From: Gemmatimonadota bacterium
Lineage (GTDB): Bacteria > Gemmatimonadota > Gemmatimonadetes > Gemmatimonadales > GWC2-71-9
Direction of reading: 5' to 3'
DNA length: 64,000 nucleotides
Assembly (NCBI GenBank): GCA_040388535.1
Contig: JAZKBR010000002.1
Span: 458,485 to 522,484, forward strand
Shown: positions 13,398 to 29,342 of the stretch, piece by piece
How the letters are laid out: every line of letters starts with the position of its first letter
Position numbering within the stretch: position 1 is the stretch's first letter
Made by a program: the position numbers and the translations under genes
The notes under the pieces: model-generated
Database searches by the model: none
Told to the model about the DNA's origin: nothing
What the model saw: the letters and a program-made list of their open reading frames with translations, nothing else

Positions 13398-14042
13398 TCA
13401 GCGCGGGTCATCGAGCAGGCGGTCGAAATCCGACTCCGTGCCTGCGACCTGTCGTGCCGACCGAAGTGCCTCGATCAATGGGCTCGACGCCGCGGCGAGC
13501 CGCCTGAGTTGTGGCTGACTTATCACCACCGGTGACAGCACCCTCCCAAAACGGCGGTCGAACATCTTGCGCGACCGTTCGCTGAGCCTGGTCAGCATCG
13601 GATCGACCAGCGTTTCGGTGCCGACGACCACGGCAAGATCGACATCACTGTCCGGCTGATCGGTAGCCTGCGCCGTGCTCCCGAAGAGGCCAGCCCAGAG
13701 CGGTGGTGATTCGGCATCGACTTCCACCAGGTCCCGCAGAGTGTCAAAGAATTCATCGATGGTTGTCCGCTCACCCTTGAAGAGTTTGAACACCGCGTGC
13801 CGGGCGAGGGCGTTGTGCGGGTTGAGCTGATAGAGCGATTGGTTGCCAATGTCTCTCCGGCGGACCACGCCGACCGCTACCAGATCACGCAGCGCGAGGT
13901 CGATTGGACGCTTCGACATTCCGACGCGCCTCCCCGCCTCGCGGCCCGAGACAGGTTCGCGGGTGGAGGAGAAGAATCGGAGGAGGCGGACCTTGGCCTG
14001 AGAGCCGAGGCAGTCGTCGAGGGGAGAGGAGATGAGGGACAT
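13398..14042 (-). CDS. Nucleotidyltransferase-domain protein with winged-helix N-terminus
   Basis: 214 residues. The N-terminal 75 residues look like a winged helix (KVRLLRFFSSTREPVSGREAGRRVGMSKRPIDLALRDL). The C-terminal half carries the Pol-beta nucleotidyltransferase signature GSTAQATDQPDSDVDLAVV, with G121-S122 and the metal-binding D133 and D135. Such proteins transfer a nucleotide to a target. Short relatives (MNT) act as antitoxins that adenylylate HEPN toxins. No HEPN partner is adjacent; the only HEPN in the window is 14 kb away in a cassette. The start at 14042 is set by GGAGG 4 nt upstream; the frame extends further only through sequence without gene character. Confidence 0.75.
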   Translation of the reverse strand: MSLISSPLDDCLGSQAKVRLLRFFSSTREPVSGREAGRRVGMSKRPIDLALRDLVAVGVVRRRDIGNQSLYQLNPHNALARHAVFKLFKGERTTIDEFFDTLRDLVEVDAESPPLWAGLFGSTAQATDQPDSDVDLAVVVGTETLVDPMLTRLSERSRKMFDRRFGRVLSPVVISQPQLRRLAAASSPLIEALRSARQVAGTESDFDRLLDDPR

Positions 14043-14192
14043 TTGGCCTCCGATTGATCGCAACGAACCCACGTGGGGCCTTAAAGCACCCGAATGGGTT
14101 AAAAAATGACCCACTCGAGATGGGACTGCAAGGCTCGGGAGCACGCGTAGAAATGGTCCCCCTAAAGTCCGCCCCAATTATTAGGGTACGAA

Positions 14193-14357
14193 ATGCCCCG
14201 CCCCCGCTGCCGCTTCGAGTACCGCTACCGCGACGCCGGGAATTACCAGGGGCGGGGGTGGGTGGTGCTGTGGGGGGAGGCTAGCCATGAGAATGAGGCG
14301 CGGATTCGGGCGGTGTTGATCGAGGGGAGCTGGTTTGTGACGGAGGTTGCGGCCTAA
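14193..14357 (+). CDS. Small conserved-type protein at the island edge
   Basis: A 54-residue frame with aromatic and charged content unlike a random frame: FEYRYRDAGNYQ, then GWVVLWGEASHENEARIRA, ending SWFVTEVAA. From memory, similar short proteins of 55-70 residues with FEYRYRDAGNY start in many bacteria and usually continue a little further. If so, this copy is cut at its C-terminus by the junction with the lower-GC island. It converges on the Vsr gene and overlaps its last 4 nt. Function unknown. Confidence 0.5.
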   Translation: MPRPRCRFEYRYRDAGNYQGRGWVVLWGEASHENEARIRAVLIEGSWFVTEVAA

Positions 14358-14767
14358 CTTCGCCCCAGAGCTCGGCGTAGCCTTGAAAGCGTCCCGGCAT
14401 TTCCTAGTCGACATTCCCAGATCCGTAGGACCTTCCAGCCGCAAGCCCGAAGCTGGCGCGCGACACGGCGATCGCGTCGTCTGTTCCCTTCGACCTTTGC
14501 CTTCCAGAACTCCGGGTTATGTCGGGGCGCCTGATAGCAGTTCGGGCATCCGTGCCAGAAGCATCCATCAACAAAAACCGCGACCTTGGAACCCGGCCAT
14601 GCGAAATCGGGCCTACCGGGCAGTGGGAGGTGGCGACGCCAGCCGGACATCCTGAACAACCGCAAAGCGGCGGCCAAACGAAGCTCGGTGCTCGCGTTCC
14701 CCTTGCCTCGGATCGAGGCCATGGTCCGAGCGCGGCCAGGGGTGACAGCAACCGGACCCGCGAGCAT
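14354..14767 (-). CDS. vsr: Very-short-patch mismatch endonuclease (Vsr)
   Basis: DNA nicking enzyme that cuts next to the T of a T:G mismatch left by deamination of 5-methylcytosine and so starts repair. The 137 residues show the Vsr core: helical N-terminus (MASIRGKGNASTELRLAAAL), catalytic D54 in GRPDFAWPG and the zinc/active-site motif VDGCFWHGCPNC (D67, C69, H72, C74). Its ATG overlaps the stop of the DptH-like gene (TAATG), so it is the fifth gene of the methyltransferase operon. It would protect methylated sites from mutation. The family is certain; a role beyond repair is not shown. Confidence 0.88.
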   Translation of the reverse strand: MLAGPVAVTPGRARTMASIRGKGNASTELRLAAALRLFRMSGWRRHLPLPGRPDFAWPGSKVAVFVDGCFWHGCPNCYQAPRHNPEFWKAKVEGNRRRDRRVARQLRACGWKVLRIWECRLGNAGTLSRLRRALGRS

Positions 14768-17700
14768 TAGCGGTTGAGCGCTTTGCGCCCGTCGGGCGTC
14801 GCCATAACTCGCTCATTCACTTCAGTCGCGAGCCCAACGCGAATCAGTCGCTTCACCGCCTCGTCCACCCGACTCGGGATTACACCGCTTACTTCCTGCA
14901 GTTCCGCCAGGAGGGCCCCCTTTTCCTCGCTCCCCATCCGCCGGAGAAGTAATAGCTGGCCATATCCTATGGTCTCGACGAACTTCGCTGGTCGCGTACC
15001 AGCGGTAACAATCGCGCAGAACTCCGAAAGCGCCGCAATCCGTTTCGAAAGTGCATCGGGCAACCCAGTCAATTGCCGAATAGCGGAGACCCGCGTAGCA
15101 TCCGGTCCGTTGCCGTGGATGATTTTGGTTGCAAGGTTTGATTGGACCGTAGGTGGGAAGTCACCGGGATTTTGACTGGACAGTAGAACGCCAACCCCAT
15201 ACGCACGGCATTCACGTGTGAATGCCTCGAGGTCAGGTGAGTCGAGCACCCAGTGTGCCTCGTCAATTACGATCAACTCCCTAAGCGTCGTAGCGTGTTC
15301 TTGCGCGTTTAGGTAACGATGGGCAGAGTAGATCAGCAGGTGCGCAAGGGTCTCCTTGACCCGCTGGGATTGAATCTGACTCAGGTCAAGGACCAACTTT
15401 CTCGAAAGCAGTGAACCGAAAGGCACATCCCGAAATCTATTGCGGAAAATCCCGAGGTCGAACAGTGGTGTCAGCCGGGTGAAGGCCTTCGGGTCGGCCG
15501 CCTCGAGTTCGCGCGCGATGTCGTTGAAATCCGGCCACTCGACAAGTTCCGCAACACTTGGTCTGGTGGATGGATTTACTCCTCGTTCTAGGTATGCTTT
15601 CCTCATTGCCGTTCGTAACGCGTTACCCGCCTGCTGCTCGCCGAGACCGTACGCTCGTTGCAGGGCAGCCTGTACTCCCGAGATATGTTGTGGTAAATCG
15701 AAGTAAGACTCCCCGGTCCCAGGGTGCGTCGAGGCAGCGGGAATCATCGGGTTGAATGGGAGCCCATCGTGAGCAATCCATTGCGGTTCGAGGCTCGCCT
15801 GCCGTAGGAACTCCTGGTCACTCGCAAAGTCATTCTTGAAATCGAGAAAGAGCAGTGGAAGATTTCGTTCTGCCAACTGCACCGCAATCGACTTGATCAG
15901 CTGTGTCTTACCCTTACCAGACGATCCAGTAACCATCAGGTTGTAATTCTCTACCCCCTGTCCAATATCTTCGGTGTCGAAAGCCACAATCTCGTGATCC
16001 TCGGTGATCCCGAGTGACGCGCGGGACCCAGCGCGGGGAAGCGCAAACACCACAGCGTCCAGTACAGGGCTAGCTTGGATTTCACCTGCTCCGGTGATCG
16101 GCGCCGGGTCGAGTGCCACCGGGACATGAGTGGAACTTGGATCCGTACCCACGCCTGGGGCAGCAGAGACGTTAGCCGCAGCTGACGAGGCCACTAGCGC
16201 CTCGCAGAACCTTGGGATCCCAACAATGGCTTCAGAGAACGCACCGTCATTCAACATGCGGGGGAAGTGAGAGGGGCCCAGCTTCACCCACCAGGCATCG
16301 CACCCGTTTACCAACTGAATGGCCTGGGGACGGCAATCCGTGCGACCCTCTTCAGTTGATACAAGCAGCGCCTTGGTCCTCGCCTGCCGCACCTGATACT
16401 CACCACGAAGAATGGCGCCAAGAATCTCTCTCTGAACCAGCGGCGGGATTTGTCCAAGGCGAAGACCATGCTCAACGAGCTTGGCGATGACCCATCTATG
16501 CGCCGAACTACTCGCACCTCGCCTAGCGAGCATTTCGACGCGATCTACCGTGACCTGAGCCTGTCCGGCAAAAGCAGTCGCCTCCGCGAGCGAAATCTCT
16601 CGGTTCCTGTACTTACTTTCGATGCCGGTGAAGCGAAGACTCAAGGGTCCCGTCTCCGACCCAGCAAGTTGGATATGAATCGCCAACAAATCGCAGAATC
16701 GTCGGTCCGTGGCCTCGCCGCGGTCGTCTCTCGGTTGGACTCCGTCCTTCCCTAGCACGTCAGTGAAAGAGTCTACAGGAAGGACAATCACAGTGGACTG
16801 ATCATCACAATTGCCGCGCAGGCTTTCAACCACTCGTGCAGCCCCGATCAACCCGATCACACCCAGTGCACTTGTGCGGCTTCGGTATGTCTCGTTTCCC
16901 ACGCCAATCCCGATGCTGACCAATACTCGCATCGCGTCTTCAGCGGCCGCCGACGTAGGTAGAAACGACCCCTGGATGAGGTCAGTGAAACCACGCGGTA
17001 AAGCCGAGATGATATAGAATGACTCAAATCCACCGGTAGGTGAGATTCGATAGTCCCAGAGGAATCTCTCTTTCCCTGGATTGGCTAGTGAGGCACGGCT
17101 CCATTTCAACAGCACCGCCGGATCGGCGTGCCCGCCGGGAATGACAACCCAACGAGCATGATCGGTTCCATCAACAGGCAACCGCCACTTAGTGGACCTT
17201 AGTGCACCTCCCGCTTCTTGCGCGCCGACAAGGGCAGCCAGAAACGCCCCAGATGCTCCGGTTGCTTCGGGGTCCAACGAGCTTGTTTCATCGGACGCCG
17301 AGCTAGGTACTGTATGCAGTCCTGCGGCCACTTCGCGCGATGGGATCATCAGAATGCATGAATCTCCGCGCCCCCTCGCGACTGTTAGCCGAGCGCTCAC
17401 ATCGGCTATCGGCTCAAAGTCTGGGTGTGCCTTTGAACCCGCCAGCACGAGATCGACACGGGATTCCATGTCACTCACCCCGGAATAAATACAAATAGGA
17501 GGTTCAGTCCAGCTCGGACTGTTGTCCTCGCTCGGCACCACTCCAGGGATGTGCAAGTGAATACCACCAGGTAACGATTGAGCCCTACTGGTGGAATTGC
17601 CATCGGAATCGAAGAGGAACGGACGCACCAAGTCCATTACTCGCTCCTCATCGTAGGACCCATCAACCCTAGCAACGATGGCGCGCCGTGACGGAAACGC

Positions 17701-20292
17701 CCGCATGTAGAGTTCGAGGTACTTCGCGATGTCGACACCGGCCGGCTCCGGAGCCAGGCTCGCCTCGACCCCAAATGCGTTCATGATCAAGTGTTGAGCC
17801 TGATCGAGCGACTCACCTTTTGATTCCGCAACAGCATACCAGCCCGCATCCTCCGTAGGCCCGGAGTAGAACGGAACGGGAAGGGTATCCGGCCCGAGGC
17901 CAGGCATCCAGCGAAAGGACGTTACCCTGGCAAAGACTTCGACCAACAATCTGACGTCGGGATCTGGACCTGCTTCTGCGATGAGTTGCAGAATGTTCGC
18001 TTGCGTGAAATACCGGCTGGCTACGACAAGCGGGTGCCATGGTCCGAGCAGAGCACAGCGGGGCCCGGACCCGACATGCACGACGCAATCGAGGTTCGCG
18101 AACAGGAATTGATGGGAATAGCTCCGGCTCTGCGCGGCCCCACGAAGACTATGGAGTATTCGCCTGTACGATTCTAGATAACCTTCCAGCGCGGCTTCGA
18201 CCGCCGCCCGCGAGGATGGATCAGGATGAAAGAGCGGGAGGGACGCATACAAGGCTCGTCCGGCAGACGTACTGCTACTGAACTGAGTCTGAATTATTCC
18301 CATGAAGGTCGCACGGGCTGTAGCATAATCAACTAGGAGTGCCCGATCTTCCAGGGACTGGGGTTCCTCGATCCTGAGAGCTGCCGGCAGGGACGCGAGT
18401 GTAGTGTCATTGAGATACCGTATCACACCATGCACGTGGACGTGCGACGAGGCGTAGCTGACTGAATTGAAGTTGATCAGGACCGGCAAAACGGATTCTT
18501 CCGAAACACCATGCTCGAACACCGAAGCCAACTCAATCAAGAATTGGTAGGCTTGCGAGCGCGGCGTTCCTATGAACGCGTCGCTGGATCGCTTGTTCGT
18601 GAAGACCTCATGGGCTTCTGAAACGCGCTGACGGCTGCCATGCCGAAGAGCGTGCAGTAGGGCGTCGTGTACTGTGGCAGGACCTCGTCGCCTGTCACCG
18701 CCCACTAGTAGGCCGGCAAAGGGCTCCCCATCAATACTTACCGAAAGCACGCTTCCATTGCCAGCGATCGAAAACCCCTTAGCACCGAGCGAAAGCATTG
18801 GAAACCGATCAGTGACCATTGCTAGCTCCGACGACGTTCCATCGAACTCGGCGTGCGTCAGCACTTGTTCCCTGAAGGGAGGGAAGTGAAGCGTCGTGCC
18901 ATGGTCCGCAGGAATCGACCCAAGCTCCCCAACCTCAGGCAACAACTGAAGGAGTTCGACCTTGTCGGAGCCCCCAGCTACCGTTCTCTCCGAAATGACG
19001 AGTGGCGTCGTCGTACACGAAATGAGGAATAGGGTCATTTCGGACCGAAATCGCCCACTTGAGGAACTCACGTCGACCCTTACGACTTGCTTCAGTTTTG
19101 CCTTTAGGCCAGCCAAGTCGAGCTGCATTTCGAATGCGTCTTGGGGTACCGTCGTCTCGGCTCTTCCCAGAGTACGTCGCCCCACTGACGCGACGACTTC
19201 ATATCGCCCGACTGGCCCGGTTAGCCTGATCTTGAGTGTGGGATTCTGTACTTCTGTGCAAGCCATGCTTTTTCCAGTAAGGCTGATGAAGCAGGCACCC
19301 GACTCGCAGCCATGCCAACTTATCGACGCCTCGAGCTCCTCCGAGCCGATAGTCGCTTCATCAAGGAATAGCCGTCTAAGCACTGCAAGCGAGAGCAAGC
19401 CCCAGTCGTCTATTGACCAGTCCTCAGAAGCTTGGAGTCCCTGAGTCAGGGCGAGTACGCCCGCTGGCTGCATGGCCAGCGCGCCAAGGCGATCCAAAAA
19501 GCGGGAGATGGTTTCCTGAAGTAGATCGACATCGAGCTCTAGTTCTGCAGCAACGGTGCGCGCGCGCTCTGACACAATTCCACGGATGTTGGGTTCACGA
19601 AGCCGTGTAAGAAGTGTCTTGCCCACGACCTGACGGCACGCTTGAATGTGGTCCCGAATCCCATCCGGCGTTGTTGACGCACTGTCTCTCGGGATTCCGA
19701 TCGCGTAGCACAGATATTCGATCCGGGCAATGTCCGAAATATCAGGTGGACAGGCCTTCGAGAGGAGCTTGTCGAAGAGAAACGCTGCCCTCCCTTCTTG
19801 CCAGGGCTCCAAGTCGTGAACCACCGCCTGAATCACATCGATACAGAGTCGTTCCCAGACAGGGTTGGTGAACCCCCAGGCCGCGACACACGAGGGGAGA
19901 ACGGCTTGGTCAAAATCAAAAACGGACTGGCCGCCCGGAGCCCAGGGCCATTCGTTGGCAAAGGCAACCGACCTGATCGCGCCGCCCGTTCCGGACATGC
20001 TGTCCTGAAGGTGGGAGAGCGTCCCAGGCATCAAGACCAAAAGGAAGCTTCCCTCGCGAACTGTTGTCAGCGACTCAGGAAGGAGCCGTTGATCGGTCTC
20101 ACTCGGACCCTCAGTCGAGCCCGGCAGAAGAACCCGGTATGAGGGGAGTCGTAACGACCTCAACATGGCATGGAGCTCGACGGCCACCCTTTCAGTCGGG
20201 CAGGGGATGACAATCCGAAACTCTCGCATCCCATTCTCAGCCATTGAAGCGGCAACCCCAGCCATCGCCTTTACGAGCGGATTGACTGACAT
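14767..20292 (-). CDS. DptH-like restriction ATPase: HerA/FtsK-type motor with internal PD-(D/E)XK-like segment
   Basis: 1841 residues, probably the motor and possibly the nuclease of the restriction half of the system. The C-terminal 400 residues are a HerA/FtsK-type ATPase: Walker A from G1456 (GSSGKGKT), LLFLDFKNDF, Walker B IDEAHW (D1677-E1678) and sensor-like GVLLSSQNPGDF. In Dnd systems DptH has this C-terminus and a similar size. Residues about 1180-1260 carry D1201 in CDLLAI, then E1225-x-K1227 in GIESKYR, a PD-(D/E)XK nuclease pattern. The N-terminal 1100 residues are not recognised. The last 80 residues look like a winged helix. The start directly follows the TAG of the DptG-like gene (0 nt) and its stop overlaps vsr. 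GC content is lower than in the flanks. Confidence 0.6.
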   Translation of the reverse strand: MSVNPLVKAMAGVAASMAENGMREFRIVIPCPTERVAVELHAMLRSLRLPSYRVLLPGSTEGPSETDQRLLPESLTTVREGSFLLVLMPGTLSHLQDSMSGTGGAIRSVAFANEWPWAPGGQSVFDFDQAVLPSCVAAWGFTNPVWERLCIDVIQAVVHDLEPWQEGRAAFLFDKLLSKACPPDISDIARIEYLCYAIGIPRDSASTTPDGIRDHIQACRQVVGKTLLTRLREPNIRGIVSERARTVAAELELDVDLLQETISRFLDRLGALAMQPAGVLALTQGLQASEDWSIDDWGLLSLAVLRRLFLDEATIGSEELEASISWHGCESGACFISLTGKSMACTEVQNPTLKIRLTGPVGRYEVVASVGRRTLGRAETTVPQDAFEMQLDLAGLKAKLKQVVRVDVSSSSGRFRSEMTLFLISCTTTPLVISERTVAGGSDKVELLQLLPEVGELGSIPADHGTTLHFPPFREQVLTHAEFDGTSSELAMVTDRFPMLSLGAKGFSIAGNGSVLSVSIDGEPFAGLLVGGDRRRGPATVHDALLHALRHGSRQRVSEAHEVFTNKRSSDAFIGTPRSQAYQFLIELASVFEHGVSEESVLPVLINFNSVSYASSHVHVHGVIRYLNDTTLASLPAALRIEEPQSLEDRALLVDYATARATFMGIIQTQFSSSTSAGRALYASLPLFHPDPSSRAAVEAALEGYLESYRRILHSLRGAAQSRSYSHQFLFANLDCVVHVGSGPRCALLGPWHPLVVASRYFTQANILQLIAEAGPDPDVRLLVEVFARVTSFRWMPGLGPDTLPVPFYSGPTEDAGWYAVAESKGESLDQAQHLIMNAFGVEASLAPEPAGVDIAKYLELYMRAFPSRRAIVARVDGSYDEERVMDLVRPFLFDSDGNSTSRAQSLPGGIHLHIPGVVPSEDNSPSWTEPPICIYSGVSDMESRVDLVLAGSKAHPDFEPIADVSARLTVARGRGDSCILMIPSREVAAGLHTVPSSASDETSSLDPEATGASGAFLAALVGAQEAGGALRSTKWRLPVDGTDHARWVVIPGGHADPAVLLKWSRASLANPGKERFLWDYRISPTGGFESFYIISALPRGFTDLIQGSFLPTSAAAEDAMRVLVSIGIGVGNETYRSRTSALGVIGLIGAARVVESLRGNCDDQSTVIVLPVDSFTDVLGKDGVQPRDDRGEATDRRFCDLLAIHIQLAGSETGPLSLRFTGIESKYRNREISLAEATAFAGQAQVTVDRVEMLARRGASSSAHRWVIAKLVEHGLRLGQIPPLVQREILGAILRGEYQVRQARTKALLVSTEEGRTDCRPQAIQLVNGCDAWWVKLGPSHFPRMLNDGAFSEAIVGIPRFCEALVASSAAANVSAAPGVGTDPSSTHVPVALDPAPITGAGEIQASPVLDAVVFALPRAGSRASLGITEDHEIVAFDTEDIGQGVENYNLMVTGSSGKGKTQLIKSIAVQLAERNLPLLFLDFKNDFASDQEFLRQASLEPQWIAHDGLPFNPMIPAASTHPGTGESYFDLPQHISGVQAALQRAYGLGEQQAGNALRTAMRKAYLERGVNPSTRPSVAELVEWPDFNDIARELEAADPKAFTRLTPLFDLGIFRNRFRDVPFGSLLSRKLVLDLSQIQSQRVKETLAHLLIYSAHRYLNAQEHATTLRELIVIDEAHWVLDSPDLEAFTRECRAYGVGVLLSSQNPGDFPPTVQSNLATKIIHGNGPDATRVSAIRQLTGLPDALSKRIAALSEFCAIVTAGTRPAKFVETIGYGQLLLLRRMGSEEKGALLAELQEVSGVIPSRVDEAVKRLIRVGLATEVNERVMATPDGRKALNR

Positions 20293-21861
20293 CTAGTTGC
20301 CTCCCCCGACACTCGAGGTATACTCGACGGACACCATCACTGCCGAGCCCGCGTCCGGGGCCCCTCGCAAAAGACCGAGCTGCTCAAGTCGTTTTATCAA
20401 GTCAGTCCGAGCACCGCCTGCTCGCGCAAAGTCGATGCCGTATTCCCCGAAGTGCCGCTCGATTCGGGAGAGGGGGACCACCCTGGCTACCCTGCCATCT
20501 TGGTCTACGGCTGCCAGATGGGCGAAGAGCGATAGCAGCCTGCTCGATGGGAAGACGCGGTAGAGCCGCTGTACCGTCGGAGCACGGTGAAGTAGGAAAC
20601 CATTGTCCGTGCTATCGGCCCTATCGTCAGTCAGGACTCGCAAGAACTCGTCTAAATTGTTTCCTGTCGTCCCCTGCGCGAGCGGGTCACGCCAGGCCTT
20701 CGCACCTTCGGAGGCTCGCTGCACCCCTCGGAGAAGTTCCTCCCCCTGCTCTCCGGGAAACGCCTCCTGTAACGCTCGGGAGAGTTCGGTAACAGGTAGA
20801 AGTCCGCTTCCGGCGAAAGTGGACAAGATCCGCCCTTCAAGCACCTGCGCCACTGAGCCGTTCGCCGCGCCCGCATGCAATAGCGCATTCAGCTCGACTC
20901 GTGCGGCCATAAACTCCGCCACGCGCGTTGGAATCGGATTACACAATGTTTCGGTCGGGTCGAGTAGTCCGATGTTGCGCGAGCCAATTCGAGCGGAGAA
21001 ACCTTCCGGGTCCGGAAGTGGTCCACCGCAAAGCCCTTCTCGAAGCGCATCGCGAACAATCGCTGTCATTCGCATCTGTGCAAGAAGCCACATGCCTGCC
21101 GAAACACAGAGAAACGCCTTGAGGACCTGGATCCATTCGAGCCGTGGGATCTTCGGCTCAAGGCGACAGATGGCTCTCCAATCATTGGCTATGTGTATTG
21201 CCAAGCCGTCTGGCGACGATCCGTTCAGCCCAGACGGAATTGCGAACTTTGATCTCTGAAAACGTTCGGCAAGCCAGGACGTCGCTTGTTCTGTCCCGAA
21301 CATTTCTGGAGGTAATTCGGCAGCGTTTGCAGCAATATGCAGCAAATCGCGAGGCTCGAGCGCCCCACCATCCAGTGCCACTACTGTCTGGTTCGCTAGC
21401 TCATTCGCTTCTCGCTGTCGATCACTCGGCGACAATGAGCTCGCCAATGCCCCATCCAGCAACAGCTGCCTCAGCGCGACATCTGACTGTTTTCGAAACC
21501 ACCCGTGCGCAGCCAACCGGGGAAATGCCGGAGCGTAATAATGATTGGTTTGGTTGGATTTGGTTGCACTCGCCCTCCGCTTAGTGCGACCCCGTAAGGA
21601 GTAGAGAACAGCTCGCGCCTCGTTGCCTATCAGAAGGGTGTCCGGGTCGAGATTTCGTTGTTTGGTGTCGACGGGAGTACCCGTATGTCGATTCGCCCCG
21701 AAGAAGACCTCGCGGAAGAGCTCTAGCACCAATTCCTCTGGAGCGTTCCGCAATCCTGTTGTCGGAACGGCAAAGAAACTCTCCTTATAAGCTGCGTGCG
21801 GTTCGACTTCGTTCCTTGTGACCGTGAATGGTATGGCCTCGAACACGGCGCTGTCGATCAT
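20293..21861 (-). CDS. DptG-like restriction protein
   Basis: 522 residues, mostly helical, with no recognised catalytic motif and one hydrophobic helix (AFLCVSAGMWLLAQM, about 265-280). The ending, YGIDFARAGGARTDLIKRL followed by EQLGLLRGAPDAGSA, looks like the C-terminal winged helix of DptG, the middle component of phosphorothioation-dependent restriction. The size and position between DptF-like and DptH-like genes agree. Its ATG overlaps the stop of the upstream gene (ATGA) and its TAG abuts the next ATG, so the three should be made together. Assignment rests mainly on gene order; a profile search could change it. Confidence 0.45.
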   Translation of the reverse strand: MIDSAVFEAIPFTVTRNEVEPHAAYKESFFAVPTTGLRNAPEELVLELFREVFFGANRHTGTPVDTKQRNLDPDTLLIGNEARAVLYSLRGRTKRRASATKSNQTNHYYAPAFPRLAAHGWFRKQSDVALRQLLLDGALASSLSPSDRQREANELANQTVVALDGGALEPRDLLHIAANAAELPPEMFGTEQATSWLAERFQRSKFAIPSGLNGSSPDGLAIHIANDWRAICRLEPKIPRLEWIQVLKAFLCVSAGMWLLAQMRMTAIVRDALREGLCGGPLPDPEGFSARIGSRNIGLLDPTETLCNPIPTRVAEFMAARVELNALLHAGAANGSVAQVLEGRILSTFAGSGLLPVTELSRALQEAFPGEQGEELLRGVQRASEGAKAWRDPLAQGTTGNNLDEFLRVLTDDRADSTDNGFLLHRAPTVQRLYRVFPSSRLLSLFAHLAAVDQDGRVARVVPLSRIERHFGEYGIDFARAGGARTDLIKRLEQLGLLRGAPDAGSAVMVSVEYTSSVGGGN

Positions 21862-24263
21862 ATGACGTCCCCATCGAGCACCACTTTATCGCTTCCATAG
21901 CGAGTCAACGTCCATGCACTGTTGGACGGACGCTGAATCACTAGCGAGACTCGCGGTGGCCGCTGCTCAACACTCCTGGAGTAACCGCCCTGCGATGCGG
22001 CTCTCTGCAAGGCAAGCCTGCCCGCCTCCGCGATCTGCTGCGGCATCGTCCAGAGCATCAATCCAGTCTTCCTCCGATATTGGAGCCAACAGAAAGACTC
22101 CGTGCTCACCGTAAGCGGCGCGGAACCACCAAACACCACATGCAACCTGGGAAGCCCTGCCTCATTGTCGTCGCGAATCTCCGGTGCGAGCCGACTATTC
22201 GCCCAGTCACCTCCAAGTTCCGCGGCGAGGGTGAGTCGAATCCCTTTCGCGCCTTCCTGAAGAATTGCTTGTAGCTCCATGGCCAGACTGTCCCGTTCCG
22301 CGTCTGACAACGGTTCACCAAGACCCACGGCATGACGAAAGTCACCAAGTTCCGCCGAGAACCAGTGACGTCCGAGCGCGAATGCGCCGTATCGAATCGA
22401 AAACGCCGAGCGCCACCTGTGAACTAGCGTCGACATTGCCAAATCTGCGCGCTGCGCAGCCAGGTACTGCTCAATCTTCTCCCATGCGGCCAGAAGCCTG
22501 CGTTCCAAATCTCCAACCAACGCTGGTGCCCAGCTTGGGTCGTCCAGACCGGCGAAGATTACTTCCCAACCATCAAGGTCATTGTGAATCGGCCCCTTGA
22601 ACGGGTCGAGTCGTCGCAGCCACCCGTTAGGCCCAATTAGGCGTGGAACACCGACATCTACCGACGGCATCAGGTTGGACTGAGGAAGTCGAGCACTCGC
22701 GCCAGCAAGAGTCAGCAGCGCGCCAAGTCTGTCAATGTCAGAGGCCGTTGCCTCGGAGGAAGCAATACCCAGCGGTTCAACCGCGGCGAACAGCATCATC
22801 GGTAGCCGGCGGGACGCGAGTGAGAAGATTTCGTCTCGTGCGTTCCGCTCATGGACCCACTCGCAAGGCCCGCTCGTGCCGTAGTCGAGCGGAACTCCAG
22901 CGAGTATCACTGAAAGCAGCGCCTGAGCCTCCCTGAACACCACTGGCTGCATGCTTAGAAGCTCGGCGTCCCCGACCAGCGTTAGGAACCGATCCATCCC
23001 AGCCGTTGTGGAAAGCAGTTCGCGGTTGCCGAAGAATGGGCAAACCCTTGCAGACGGACAGGTGCTACACACAGACCAGTTGTCGGGTGAGGTAGCTGCG
23101 TTGGTTAAACTACGGAATTCCCTGTCCGATGAACGGATTAGGGAATGGGAATCGAGGGCATCCCAAGATAGGAGTACAGAGCGCTCGAGCAGCAGGACAT
23201 CTCTTGGATCGCCCGAGTTTCGAGCTGCCGCTAGATCGACGAGCATCGACTTAAGCGTGCCTTCAAGAGCATGGTTTCCCGCCTGCTCGAGAATGCCGCG
23301 GTTCACGCACACCCACACCGAGGCCCCTGCTTGTCGCGCCGATTCCAAGACCTGTGCAAAATCCTTCGCCGGGTCTGGCATGGCCGAATACGGGTCCGAG
23401 ACTACAGACGCGTCCTGCACGATGTACAGGCTCGGAATTTCGGAGTCCGGCGGAATGAGCCGGATCGAGACCGGAAGGTTTCTTGGCGCAGCTTCAAGAA
23501 TCGGGTGATCGAACTCGTCCAACGCTCTCCACTTCCGCTGCACCAATTCACGGACGAGGCGGCCAGTCGCGGCGGATTTCCCATTCCCTGGTGACCCGAC
23601 AAAGAAATGCCAGGCTGGCACAGACGGATCGGCCGCCAAGTGACTCAGCATTCGATCGACCGATCGGTAGGTAACGGTCTCGGAAATTTCCAGAACTGGC
23701 AGTTCGCTCCACGACGACGGGGCACTTATTGCGCCGGTACCGTCTTGTTGCAAAGTGAGGAGCCTTTCGAGAAATGGGTTGACGACGACACCGGTGGTTC
23801 CCGAAACCCCCTGCGCGCTATGCAAGATGTTGTGTAGCGGTGTGCCAATTTCATCTGCCGTCGCCATGAGCGATTGATCGCTAGCATTGACCACAACGAG
23901 ATCGCCCCGGACTACCAAGACCGAGAGTACGTTGCCGGCCTTAGCATAGTTGGGGAGTGACTTGAACCAGATTCTCGGATCGCCGTCCCCGCTGTTCGGT
24001 CGGTATAATGTCGCAACCGTTCGCGAAAGCTCTGCTGACCCAACGAACCAGGCGGTAGTTGTGATTTTCGAATCTGGCCCTTTCCCTTGACGTCCGTAGT
24101 CGTGGACAGCCTGATCCGAGAGGAACTCTCGCAAAGAATGCGGAGCATCGAGCACAGACTTCGAAAGTCCAGTATCCGTCGGAACTAGAATGCCGCAGGC
24201 CACCCCGCGTTCCTTGAAGAAGGCGATAACATCTTCTGGCGGCCGATCTGGGAGAGGGGGCAT
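21858..24263 (-). CDS. DptF-like P-loop ATPase with unassigned N-terminal domain
   Basis: 801 residues. A Walker A motif lies at about 223-230 (GSPGNGKS) after a beta-rich N-terminal region of about 180 residues, and a CSTCPSARVC cluster (C399, C402, C408) suggests a structural zinc. DptF proteins of Dnd restriction are P-loop ATPases with a cysteine cluster but are usually shorter (about 500-550 residues). The extra N-terminus (GILVPTDTGLSKSVLDAP, then RTVATLYRPNSGDGDPRIWF) has the feel of a B3/EcoRII-N-like DNA-reading fold and may recognise the site or its methylation. That is speculation. ATG overlaps the methyltransferase stop (TAATG); its TGA overlaps the DptG-like start. Confidence 0.5.
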   Translation of the reverse strand: MPPLPDRPPEDVIAFFKERGVACGILVPTDTGLSKSVLDAPHSLREFLSDQAVHDYGRQGKGPDSKITTTAWFVGSAELSRTVATLYRPNSGDGDPRIWFKSLPNYAKAGNVLSVLVVRGDLVVVNASDQSLMATADEIGTPLHNILHSAQGVSGTTGVVVNPFLERLLTLQQDGTGAISAPSSWSELPVLEISETVTYRSVDRMLSHLAADPSVPAWHFFVGSPGNGKSAATGRLVRELVQRKWRALDEFDHPILEAAPRNLPVSIRLIPPDSEIPSLYIVQDASVVSDPYSAMPDPAKDFAQVLESARQAGASVWVCVNRGILEQAGNHALEGTLKSMLVDLAAARNSGDPRDVLLLERSVLLSWDALDSHSLIRSSDREFRSLTNAATSPDNWSVCSTCPSARVCPFFGNRELLSTTAGMDRFLTLVGDAELLSMQPVVFREAQALLSVILAGVPLDYGTSGPCEWVHERNARDEIFSLASRRLPMMLFAAVEPLGIASSEATASDIDRLGALLTLAGASARLPQSNLMPSVDVGVPRLIGPNGWLRRLDPFKGPIHNDLDGWEVIFAGLDDPSWAPALVGDLERRLLAAWEKIEQYLAAQRADLAMSTLVHRWRSAFSIRYGAFALGRHWFSAELGDFRHAVGLGEPLSDAERDSLAMELQAILQEGAKGIRLTLAAELGGDWANSRLAPEIRDDNEAGLPRLHVVFGGSAPLTVSTESFCWLQYRRKTGLMLWTMPQQIAEAGRLALQRAASQGGYSRSVEQRPPRVSLVIQRPSNSAWTLTRYGSDKVVLDGDVI

Positions 24264-25546
24264 TAGCGCTTCCCGTGAAGGATGTCGCGAAGATGAACTC
24301 CGATCTGATACGCAAGCTGAACTGGCACTGCGTTGCCTATTTGTGTGTACTTAGGCAACTCTCTGTCAAAGACGCCCAGCCGCGGATTACCGGCGCGGCG
24401 AAGCCCACCGGTTGTCCGCTTCCCGGAAAACTGGTACCAATCAGGGAAGCCCTGTAGTCGAGCCCACTCTCTTACCGTCAGCGTTCTTGGTTGGGAAAAG
24501 TGAACGTAGTCATCCGGCAGCGAGGTGGCCGTGATAGTGGGCCCGACGCCCTCATCCCAATTCTCGGGCAACACGCGTTGCGCAAACTTCTTTGTTGCGA
24601 AACGAGCGGGAACACGGCCATCGCCCGCCAACATCGCCTCAAACTTCTCGACCACTTTCGCCGAATGGTTGCTGTATTGGTGCTCTTCTACTGCTGAGCC
24701 TTTCCGGCTAACAGGTCCACCATCACGAGGGGTTCGAAAACGCCGTTGGATGCCGGTCGCCGCATTGGGATAAGCCTCCGTGGCCCCACCGTTCTGGTAG
24801 TCCGGATCAACCAAGTCGCCGAGCAGTTCGCCCAGATGTGGGGGCTCGGCCTTGATCGAACTCGGCAAGAACCCGCGGTCCACGGCGTCATTCGATAACT
24901 CAGACTCGCTTCCTGGGAGATTACTGATGTCCCTCCTCAACCCGACAAGTATGAGACGCGGGCGATTCTGCGGCACGCCATAGTCCTTCGCGTAAATCAA
25001 CTGCGCTGCGATCTGGTATGTCCCTAGGCTCTTGAAAGTTTGATAGACGTCTTCCCAGATTTGCCCAGGCCTACCGGACGGCGTCCACCTGCCATTTAGC
25101 AAGCCCCGGACATTTTCAAAGACGAATGCCTTTGGCTGCAGCCCTTGAATCGCAGTCGCCATGTCTTCGAAGAGTCGATTTGCTGGAAGGTCTTCCTTCG
25201 CGACCGAGTATGATCGCCGGTGCCCAATCCCAGAGAAACCTTGGCACGGTGGGCCACCGACCAGCAAATCGATCTCGCCCGCCTTAATCCCGAGTTCTGT
25301 GTCAAGCTTCGCCTGCAAGTCGTGCAGTGCTTTGGAGTGCTTCGTCAGTTTCCGGACATCATTAACCGACAGTCCATACTCCTCGATCCACGGCGCAATT
25401 TCCCTTCGATTGCGCATCCACGTTTCGAGGGCGTCAGGGTTCAGCTCATTGACGAAAACGGGCTGGAAGTCAGCCTGCTCAAGTCCCAGCGACATTCCGC
25501 CGCAGCCAGCAAATAGATCAATGAACGTGAGCTTGTCGGTCAGCAT
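24263..25546 (-). CDS. dcm: DNA (cytosine-5-)-methyltransferase
   Basis: Transfers methyl from SAM to C5 of cytosine in a specific DNA site. All key motifs are present in 427 residues: I (DLFAGCGGMSLGL, 10-22), IV (GGPPCQGFS, nucleophile C101), VI (FENVRG), VIII (QNRPRL), IX (REWARLQGFPD) and X (IGNAVP). The target-recognition region (about 230-340) is not assignable to a site. It is the first gene of a five-gene coupled operon with three Dpt-like genes and vsr, so it probably supplies the self-mark for that restriction module. The Dcm/Vsr pairing hints at, but does not prove, a CCWGG-like site. The ATG at 25546 starts directly before the usual N-terminal motif I. Confidence 0.93.
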   Translation of the reverse strand: MLTDKLTFIDLFAGCGGMSLGLEQADFQPVFVNELNPDALETWMRNRREIAPWIEEYGLSVNDVRKLTKHSKALHDLQAKLDTELGIKAGEIDLLVGGPPCQGFSGIGHRRSYSVAKEDLPANRLFEDMATAIQGLQPKAFVFENVRGLLNGRWTPSGRPGQIWEDVYQTFKSLGTYQIAAQLIYAKDYGVPQNRPRLILVGLRRDISNLPGSESELSNDAVDRGFLPSSIKAEPPHLGELLGDLVDPDYQNGGATEAYPNAATGIQRRFRTPRDGGPVSRKGSAVEEHQYSNHSAKVVEKFEAMLAGDGRVPARFATKKFAQRVLPENWDEGVGPTITATSLPDDYVHFSQPRTLTVREWARLQGFPDWYQFSGKRTTGGLRRAGNPRLGVFDRELPKYTQIGNAVPVQLAYQIGVHLRDILHGKR

Positions 25547-27621: not shown

Positions 27622-28152
27622 TCATCGCGGGCACGTGGCCAGCAGGTCAGGCAATCGCGCCACGAACAGTGACGCCCGCGCGTAGGCCGCAAATATCTCA
27701 TCGGCCGTTTTCTCGAGGACGAAGGTGCCGAATCCTTGATGAACCAATCGATTGCGCTCGTCGCCCAGCTGCAAAAAACTCGCAATGGCGTCCTTAAGGG
27801 CAGCGTCAGCCCCAATCGCTGCGTTCGCGTGCCGTTTGAATTCATCGCCGAATAGCCCGAAAAATTGGTTTGCGTTGGCGGCATCCCACTTGAACAGTGT
27901 ATGGTACTGCCTCGCAAGCGCTTTGCTGCGCACGAAGGCTACGAGTGGCGACGAGCCTCCAGCCTCGGTTTCGGCGAAGGCGGTGATCACCGAGGTGATC
28001 GCAAGCTCAAACTCACTAGCCGCAGCGAGCAATAGCGATTTTCGAAAGACATCATTTGCGGTGATCGCCAGAGACGGTTCGACGCTCGCATCGATCACAC
28101 TAGTTAGCGCAAGAAAGTCGTCGTGCAATTGAGCGACGATGCTCGTGCTCAT
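27622..28152 (-). CDS. HEPN-domain protein (RiboL-PSP/MAE_28990-like), probable RNase toxin
   Basis: 176 residues, all helical. The HEPN nuclease motif R-x4-H is intact in GDERNRLVHQG (R133, N134, H138), near the end of the last long helix, as in HEPN ribonucleases. Family members cut RNA as toxins or effectors. It starts 8 nt after the DUF262 gene, and the pair lies between two attC sites as one two-gene cassette. DUF262 next to a RiboL-PSP-type HEPN is a recurring arrangement in defence islands, so an abortive-infection or toxin-antitoxin role is likely but inferred. Confidence 0.7.
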   Translation of the reverse strand: MSTSIVAQLHDDFLALTSVIDASVEPSLAITANDVFRKSLLLAAASEFELAITSVITAFAETEAGGSSPLVAFVRSKALARQYHTLFKWDAANANQFFGLFGDEFKRHANAAIGADAALKDAIASFLQLGDERNRLVHQGFGTFVLEKTADEIFAAYARASLFVARLPDLLATCPR

Positions 28153-28160
28153 GAATACAC

Positions 28161-29342
28161 CTATGCGAGCAGAATTGTTGCACGTGCAAGACGCTTGTCA
28201 ACGTTCGTCTTGTCCGCACTTGCCTTCTCTGATGACTCAATGAAGGCGGGGTCGGCGTCCAATTGACGCAGTTTAGTCGCTGACACTAGCCCGACTTCCG
28301 GGAGGCCGCCGGAGTAAGCCGTGGCCATGATTGCCGAGAACGTCGCCTCAAAGAGCGCAATGCTAAAGCGCCGCGTACGCGTGCTCACAAACGCGTCGGC
28401 CGGAAGGTCCTTGCAAGCCTCCAGAAACGCATCGAACAGAGCGTTCAGTGAGTCGATTTTTGCCAGATCGAAGACTTTCGCCTTCTTTGAGAAATTATTG
28501 AGAAAACGCGCCATCGATGGCTTGTAGTTCCGCCACTCAAGCAACATCGCGAACCCCCGAAGTAGCACTTCCACATCCTTCATGTGAAGATCAGGCTCCG
28601 GAAGGCTCACGACGCGGCGCCAGCGCGGATCCAGATTGATTCGATAGAGCAAGTCATAGAATGCGGAATGGTAGAGACTTGTGCGGATCTCCTGAGGACG
28701 CAAGTTGATCCCACCTGTATTGAGGCGATTGAAGATCTCGTAAACAGACGAGTCATCATCACTGGGCTTCGTCTGTTTCACAACTATGTTGCGAACTGGG
28801 CGCAGGTTGAACTGGGGTTGATACTCCTCTAACGTCTGATAGTTCAGATTCCGGAATTTGTTTGTGCGACCTGGGAGCGAATGCGGAAGGCTGAGCTTGA
28901 ATGGAGTAAAATACTCATCATCGTGCAAAACGGACTCGGGAATCTGTCCACGCTCAGCGAAAATTGTCCGAAGCTCTGAACGCTTCTCTTTGCGCGGAAA
29001 GCGCCCCTTCATGAAGTAGTAGATAGACATCATGCGCTGTTGCCCATCAATGACGAGAAAGCGATTCCGGGCCTCCTCATACAGGAAGATCTGAGGAACC
29101 GGCAATCCAAGGATGAGCGATTCGATGAGCTTCGAAGCGCGTTTGATGTCCCACACATAGTTTCGCTGGAAACCAGGAATGACAACGGCCCCGGATTCAA
29201 TGAAACTATTGATCGTGAGTACGTTGAAGTCATTGGGCGTTGACGTAAGTTCGTACTCGTCAATATCGAATTCGTCATCACCTTCTTGGGCCGCGTAATC
29301 GTCGTACCATTCCTTCACTGAACTCGGCATCTCGTGACTCAC
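28161..29342 (-). CDS. DUF262-domain protein (GmrS/ParB-like NTPase)
   Basis: 393 residues. It has the DUF262 core: IPGFQRNYVW (55-64), IESLILGLPVPQIF and the ParB-like IDGQQR (98-103), then EIFNRLNTGG and PQEIRTSLY. DUF262 domains in GmrSD-type systems bind and hydrolyse NTP to control a nuclease. Here the partner nuclease is the HEPN protein encoded 8 nt downstream, in place of DUF1524. The ATG lies 27 nt after an attC site, as expected for the first gene of a cassette. The region is visibly lower in GC than the chromosome. Likely a cassette-borne phage defence pair. Confidence 0.82.
   Translation of the reverse strand: MSHEMPSSVKEWYDDYAAQEGDDEFDIDEYELTSTPNDFNVLTINSFIESGAVVIPGFQRNYVWDIKRASKLIESLILGLPVPQIFLYEEARNRFLVIDGQQRMMSIYYFMKGRFPRKEKRSELRTIFAERGQIPESVLHDDEYFTPFKLSLPHSLPGRTNKFRNLNYQTLEEYQPQFNLRPVRNIVVKQTKPSDDDSSVYEIFNRLNTGGINLRPQEIRTSLYHSAFYDLLYRINLDPRWRRVVSLPEPDLHMKDVEVLLRGFAMLLEWRNYKPSMARFLNNFSKKAKVFDLAKIDSLNALFDAFLEACKDLPADAFVSTRTRRFSIALFEATFSAIMATAYSGGLPEVGLVSATKLRQLDADPAFIESSEKASADKTNVDKRLARATILLA

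Follow-up and report, generated by a model that had tools for sequence, protein, structure and literature searches.

A minus-strand gene set in a Gemmatimonadota genome, a probable ATP-dependent restriction-modification system based on m5C whose specificity would lie in an exchangeable cassette of Dcm and B3 domain

The window analyzed here is a stretch of 64,000 nucleotides from a Gemmatimonadota bacterium (GWC2-71-9; GCA_040388535.1, contig JAZKBR010000002.1, positions 458,485 to 522,484 of the forward strand). Between positions 14354 and 25546, five minus-strand open reading frames encode a C5-cytosine DNA methyltransferase (Dcm, the M subunit; 24263..25546, 427 aa), a P-loop NTPase with an additional N-terminal domain (F; 21858..24263, 801 aa), a helical protein (G; 20293..21861, 522 aa), a protein with nuclease and HerA/FtsK motor parts (H; 14767..20292, 1841 aa), and a Vsr T:G mismatch endonuclease (14354..14767, 137 aa). 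We re-found exactly the coordinates and lengths given in an earlier note on this DNA. All five genes abut or overlap (Dcm/F, TAATG; F/G, ATGA; G/H, TAG-ATG; H/Vsr, TAATG), and they are thus probably translationally coupled. As that note had remarked, the operon lies in DNA of lower GC content (0.55-0.60 over 15-30 kb, compared with ~0.65 in the flanks); this stretch runs beyond the operon, to ~30 kb of the window, and includes a HEPN (RiboL-PSP) gene adjoining a GmrSD_N/DUF262 gene (27622-29342, minus). Directly downstream of Vsr, a 259-residue protein (13398-14177, minus) has weak MntA-like nucleotidyltransferase and helix-turn-helix matches.

The two outer genes, described in the earlier note as a complete C5 methyltransferase and Vsr, are both recognized by curated models. 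Dcm matches PF00145 (E = 2.5e-59) and TIGR00675, and Vsr matches PF03852 (E = 5.9e-13, above the cut-off) and TIGR00632 (E = 1.5e-27; 96.2 bits, just below the 97.85-bit cut-off). The same two genes are also paired in E. coli K-12. The company of Vsr and of MvaI/BcnI-type enzymes (see below) hints at a possible CCNGG-type specificity for Dcm. The reported lack of dnd and BREX markers holds as well: the genome, which is 98% complete, contains no dndC, and the locus contains no PglZ or BREX gene and gave no PADLOC BREX match. The single PglZ domain in the genome sits on another contig, and DrmMII models of DISARM match only through the generic C5 methylase; BREX and DISARM were therefore rejected as identifications.

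The earlier note also bore on whether the five genes co-occur elsewhere. The set is conserved in ~60 other genomes, which excludes a chance grouping of genes. A tblastn search of plasmids with window F located the F core on three of them. On two of these, from Sinorhizobium fredii GR64 and Rhizobium leguminosarum 31B, the gene order is identical to that of the window (Dcm, F, G, H, Vsr), and the annotation labels the three middle genes only "hypothetical" or "ATP-binding"; on the third (Pseudoalteromonas), Dcm comes after F-G-H. As a single-sequence query of genome contigs, window G returned no matches, and an alignment query was needed; scanning one genome per species with a G alignment yielded at least 64 loci, a lower bound given that the scan demands exact peptide matches. 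These loci come from Alpha-, Beta-, Gamma-, and Deltaproteobacteria (Pseudomonas aeruginosa PA7 among them), Verrucomicrobia, Planctomycetes, Gemmatimonas, Mariprofundus, and Christiangramia. The order Dcm-F-G-H-Vsr occurs across Proteobacteria, and Dcm-F-G-H occurs in other phyla as well. Among the 52 loci uncut by contig ends, which were scored with profiles that we built, Dcm is present in 51, Vsr in 37, and all five genes in strict order in 28; a profile search found homologs of DndB-E, DptF, or DptG in none of them.

Within this family, the window proteins form deep branches with ~20 to 25% identity to the remaining members, to which they align with hhalign probabilities of 99.6% (F), 97.9% (G), and 99.6% (H, over residues 697-1781). 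Only 1 of the 151 genomes searched among the close relatives of the host, namely, the host itself, contains G, which points to a recent or rare acquisition of the operon. A genome of the same order has a rearranged layout in which Dcm and F-G-H lie on opposite strands and a gene with weak similarity to Vsr immediately precedes F (L085, 6252-17850). In a genome of the same class, a Dcm-like gene lies convergently beside an F-G-H operon with an SspF-type F (L106, 1850-12151), so that F-G-H and m5C may have been combined on more than one occasion. Arenimonas daejeonensis (L065) retains intact Dcm and Vsr genes next to F, G, and H split into several frames, i.e., effector decay with methylation retained. 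On a Priestia plasmid (L077, 1-13035), an annotated DptFGH set comes right after genes for a Dam methylase and an endonuclease of the AlwI type, with dnd modification genes absent from the nearby listing.

H is the member of the F-G-H trio with the clearest relative among known systems. The PADLOC DndH profile matches window H in the ATPase part only (E = 1.9e-19) and family H over residues 1210-1813, which cover the nuclease and HerA parts (E = 3.2e-71); window H also matches the DptH C terminus (7es4; E = 1.5e-6). The HerA/FtsK-type ATPase domain (15103..15960, minus) has Walker A at residue 1456 and Walker B (IVIDEA) at residue 1674. Preceding it is a PD-(D/E)XK nuclease motif (16543..16710, minus; D1201 and E1225-S-K1227), in which D1201, E1225, and K1227 are kept and the motif columns are invariant in four H proteins. 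The motif reads RPD...TPIEVK in all 63 H proteins of the family, and its DptH counterpart is SDD...PLEVK; hhalign aligns the two (...PLEVKTG in DptH) with a probability of 41 to 58%. Judged from these similarities, H is a remote DndH with a putative nuclease, assigned from the motif and the 41 to 58% alignment, followed by a HerA/FtsK motor.

For G, searches of PADLOC, Pfam, and NCBIfam profiles returned no match, no sequence relative was detected outside the family, and the hhalign comparison with DptG was nonsignificant (13%). Its AlphaFold2 model, of moderate confidence (pLDDT, 70.6; pTM, 0.76), aligns over 299 residues, spanning model residues 2-509, with the DndG crystal structure (7exx) at a Z score of 14.4, a value to be read with the caution that mostly helical models can reach high scores by chance. 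The second-best of 997 chains reached a Z score of 4.4. This ranking came from a second structure aligner, and DndG was missing from the best 50 hits of Foldseek. Because every other helical protein scores far lower and the alignment is colinear from end to end, homology of G to DndG is likely at the level of the model.

The AAA+/STAND-like P-loop core of F (residues ~181-500; 22764..23723, minus) contains Walker A (GSPGNGKS at residue 223), a strand motif (VQDA at 282), and CVNRG at 319. Window F reached the SspF profile only at an E value of 0.035, and the best family F did so at 2.7e-7; family F aligned with the SspF-type F of the same-class genome described above at an hhalign probability of 97.8%. 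A structural model of the core resembles STAND, TnsC, and ORC/Cdc6 ATPases (Z scores of 6 to 7.8), which may reflect a common arrangement only. The comparison with DptF was nonsignificant (~7% by hhalign). Neither F nor G matched the DndF, DndG, or dnd_assoc profiles of PADLOC and NCBIfam (with a limit of E = 1 for the Dnd profiles), and the dnd_assoc check proposed in the earlier note (TIGR03236-03238) gave no match for F, G, or H; TIGR03237 was also without a match in the phylum of the window, where a control was equally silent. By sequence comparison, the P-loop region of F shares homology with SspF, and F has no detectable relation to DndF.

Because H is DndH-like, G matches the DndG structure, and F is related to SspF and not to DndF, we regard these proteins as a third family of FGH complexes alongside DndFGH and SspFGH, with m5C in place of phosphorothioate as the partner modification. 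The earlier proposal of a Dpt-like effector thus stands, as a remote likeness, for H, by sequence, and for G, by fold only, but not for F, which is nearer to SspF than to DptF. Its pairing with C5 methylation is borne out by the wide co-occurrence of the genes, with restriction as the predicted activity, and no other described non-Dpt system was matched by the 801-, 522-, and 1841-residue proteins. Our search, which covered open-access papers, found no description of a system combining F-G-H, Dcm, and Vsr, and an earlier listing elsewhere is possible.

The best clue to site reading is a feature that the earlier note did not include, i.e., a predicted B3-type DNA-binding domain at the N terminus of F (residues ~10-135; 23859..24236, minus). 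Residues 1-155 are missing from nearly all other family F proteins. This N-terminal domain is 37% identical to the N-terminal domains of MvaI/BcnI-type enzymes, in which it stands before a PF15515 catalytic domain; PF15515 is absent from F, and F was thus rejected as a plain MvaI/BcnI endonuclease, the N-terminal domain alone being common to both. The structural model (pLDDT mostly 85-96) points to a B3 pseudobarrel fold, with the DNA complexes of FUS3 (VIA-align Z score of 10.6; rmsd of 2.5 over 99 residues) and LEC2 (Z score of 9.7) as matches. Sequence searches of the PDB and Pfam recognized no relative of this domain, and EcoRII-N was not retrieved as one. Dcm adjoins all B3-bearing loci examined, and the fused effector is an MvaI-type enzyme, a DUF262 protein, or F (in the window and in L064). 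The DUF262 type is seen on an IMG/VR contig (L098, 2656-6381), where a DUF262/GmrSD protein with a C-terminal B3 domain lies beside Dcm as a third effector type; a single-sequence scan of viral contigs with the MvaI-type enzyme gave no match, and an alignment query was needed. On a Phaeobacter plasmid (L091, 6808-8273), a DUF262 and HEPN pair, as also present in the window, adjoins a B3-MvaI restriction-modification system.

Three other loci (L052, L058, and L062) have a different N-terminal domain on F, of ~100 residues and with no Pfam name, which is 38% similar to part of an HNH endonuclease from a Hymenobacter plasmid and which may resemble the N-terminal domain of ScoMcrA. As this domain occurs in place of the B3 domain of the window and L064, the F N terminus seems to be a position that accepts different reader domains. 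Most family F proteins lack B3, and site reading in those systems would therefore lie elsewhere (in G or the middle of H).

The type of Dcm changes together with the B3 domain. Window Dcm is 50 to 51% identical to Dcms adjoining B3-MvaI enzymes and ~34% identical to other F-G-H Dcms, and it groups with the former in the tree (support, 100/96). The Dcm junction at one B3-MvaI locus (L005) is TAATG, as it is at the Dcm/F boundary of the window. A second case is provided by L064 (Mariprofundus) and L004 (Pseudoalteromonas), whose F cores, G, and H are 73 to 79% identical and whose Dcms differ (38% identity over 286 aa). Relative to L004, the F of L064 has gained 153 residues, including the B3 domain, and its Dcm belongs to a B3-MvaI-associated clade other than that of window Dcm; the Dcms of L052, L058, and L062 fall in the same clade as that of L064. 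These patterns suggest that the B3 domain and the type of Dcm are inherited together, and they hint only indirectly at a common site for methylase and effector, in a sample that comprises two B3-bearing F proteins, an L064 Dcm on a long tree branch, and three loci (L052, L058, and L062) that are mutually nonindependent. As a counter-case, seven F-G-H loci combine a Dcm of a Type II-associated clade with an F lacking B3. One of these (L011) is probably a separate restriction-modification remnant: its F-G-H has no upstream Dcm of its own, and a convergent Dcm precedes a truncated frame encoding B3 (16971-18769), possibly left by recombination.

We consider it probable that the five genes form an ATP-dependent m5C restriction-modification system in which Dcm and B3 constitute an exchangeable specificity cassette. 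Dcm would methylate the host genome at a short site as a self mark, and the B3 domain of F would bind that site when unmethylated. The P-loop NTPase of F could then relay the unmethylated state to G, as a DndG-fold DNA binder, and to H, a predicted translocase and nuclease that would travel on DNA and nick or cut it, with defense against phages as the expected outcome. Vsr would repair the T:G mismatches that arise from 5-methylcytosine deamination, limiting C-to-T mutation at marked sites. Dcm and B3 would have passed as a single specificity cassette between an MvaI-like Type II enzyme and F-G-H.

An unlikely alternative is that the operon joins two independent modules, i.e., a Dcm and Vsr maintenance pair and a standalone F-G-H that senses invaders otherwise than by missing methylation. 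The E. coli pair and a locus with F-G-H and no adjacent Dcm (L054) fit this reading, as do the frequent separation of DndFGH from its modification genes and the proposal by Rakesh et al. that DndFGH senses something other than missing modification (PMC10853773). The presence of Dcm in nearly all complete loci, the gene overlaps, and the shift of Dcm type along with the B3 domain argue against it. It is quite unlikely that F-G-H acts by abortive infection, killing the cell once a phage has removed or inhibited methylation by Dcm, with the host genome and not the incoming DNA as its target; SspFGH and DndFGH do damage hosts from which the modification is missing (PMC8092258). However, a plain restriction-modification system would give equal host damage, and a dedicated sensor was not seen. 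Modified bases could be ligands of some B3 and winged-helix readers, and phages contain modified cytosines, but a reversed, Type IV-like logic, in which F-G-H attacks particular modified cytosines and Dcm marks the host to be ignored or regulates the system, is very improbable, as the same B3 domain on Dcm-paired MvaI-type enzymes is part of a standard modification-protected arrangement and an anti-m5C nuclease beside a host-methylating enzyme would be self-destructive.

It is reasonably likely that F-G-H is a general, modification-agnostic effector superfamily, whose third family would be a class of m5C ATP-dependent restriction-modification systems with specificity set by an exchangeable Dcm and reader cassette that is docked at the F N terminus and shared with MvaI-type and DUF262 nucleases. 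Self/non-self recognition by DndFGH is a standing puzzle because only 10 to 15% of consensus sites are phosphorothioated (PMC10853773). In a homologous complex linked to ordinary m5C, whose reader domain can be identified and whose methylase can be expressed separately, this puzzle becomes testable by routine methylation assays. The natural swap of Dcm and B3 indicates that specificity can pass between unrelated effectors, and it suggests how ATP-dependent restriction complexes might be reprogrammed.

DndFGH and SspFGH are restriction modules against unmodified DNA (PMC11662687, PMC8092258), and nickase and translocase activities have been reported for DndFGH (PMC11662687). The window set shares with DndFGH/DptFGH the F-G-H order, a P-loop F, a DndG-fold G, and a very large H with PD-(D/E)XK and HerA/FtsK parts at its C-terminal end, but it has no phosphorothioate genes, is paired with Dcm and Vsr, and has an F nearer to SspF. 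With SspFGH (of SspABCD-SspFGH), it shares an F homologous over the P-loop region and, prospectively, a three-gene attack on unmodified DNA, whereas its modification is m5C, and among PADLOC profiles its H matches that of DndH, with no match of G or H to those of SspG and SspH. Cytosine methylases also occur with the DndDE core (PMC10853773); these CxC-DndE systems (Rakesh et al. 2024) likewise have m5C instead of phosphorothioate in a Dnd-related setting but concern the DndDE modification core, with F-G-H uninvolved and Vsr unmentioned. The nearest functional precedents are CglI and NgoAVII, which leave methylated sites uncut and resemble the window set in combining an m5C methylase, a B3 DNA reader, and an ATP-dependent motor (PMC4267653). 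Their effectors, a PLD nuclease and an SF2-Z1 motor, are unrelated to the PD-(D/E)XK and HerA/FtsK parts found here, and membership in their class was rejected, as both are absent from the Pfam matches of the five proteins. The B3-bearing MvaI/BcnI-type Type II enzymes share the same B3 domain and a closely related Dcm with the window set, and the difference lies in the effector, which is one small endonuclease in the former and a three-protein complex in the latter.
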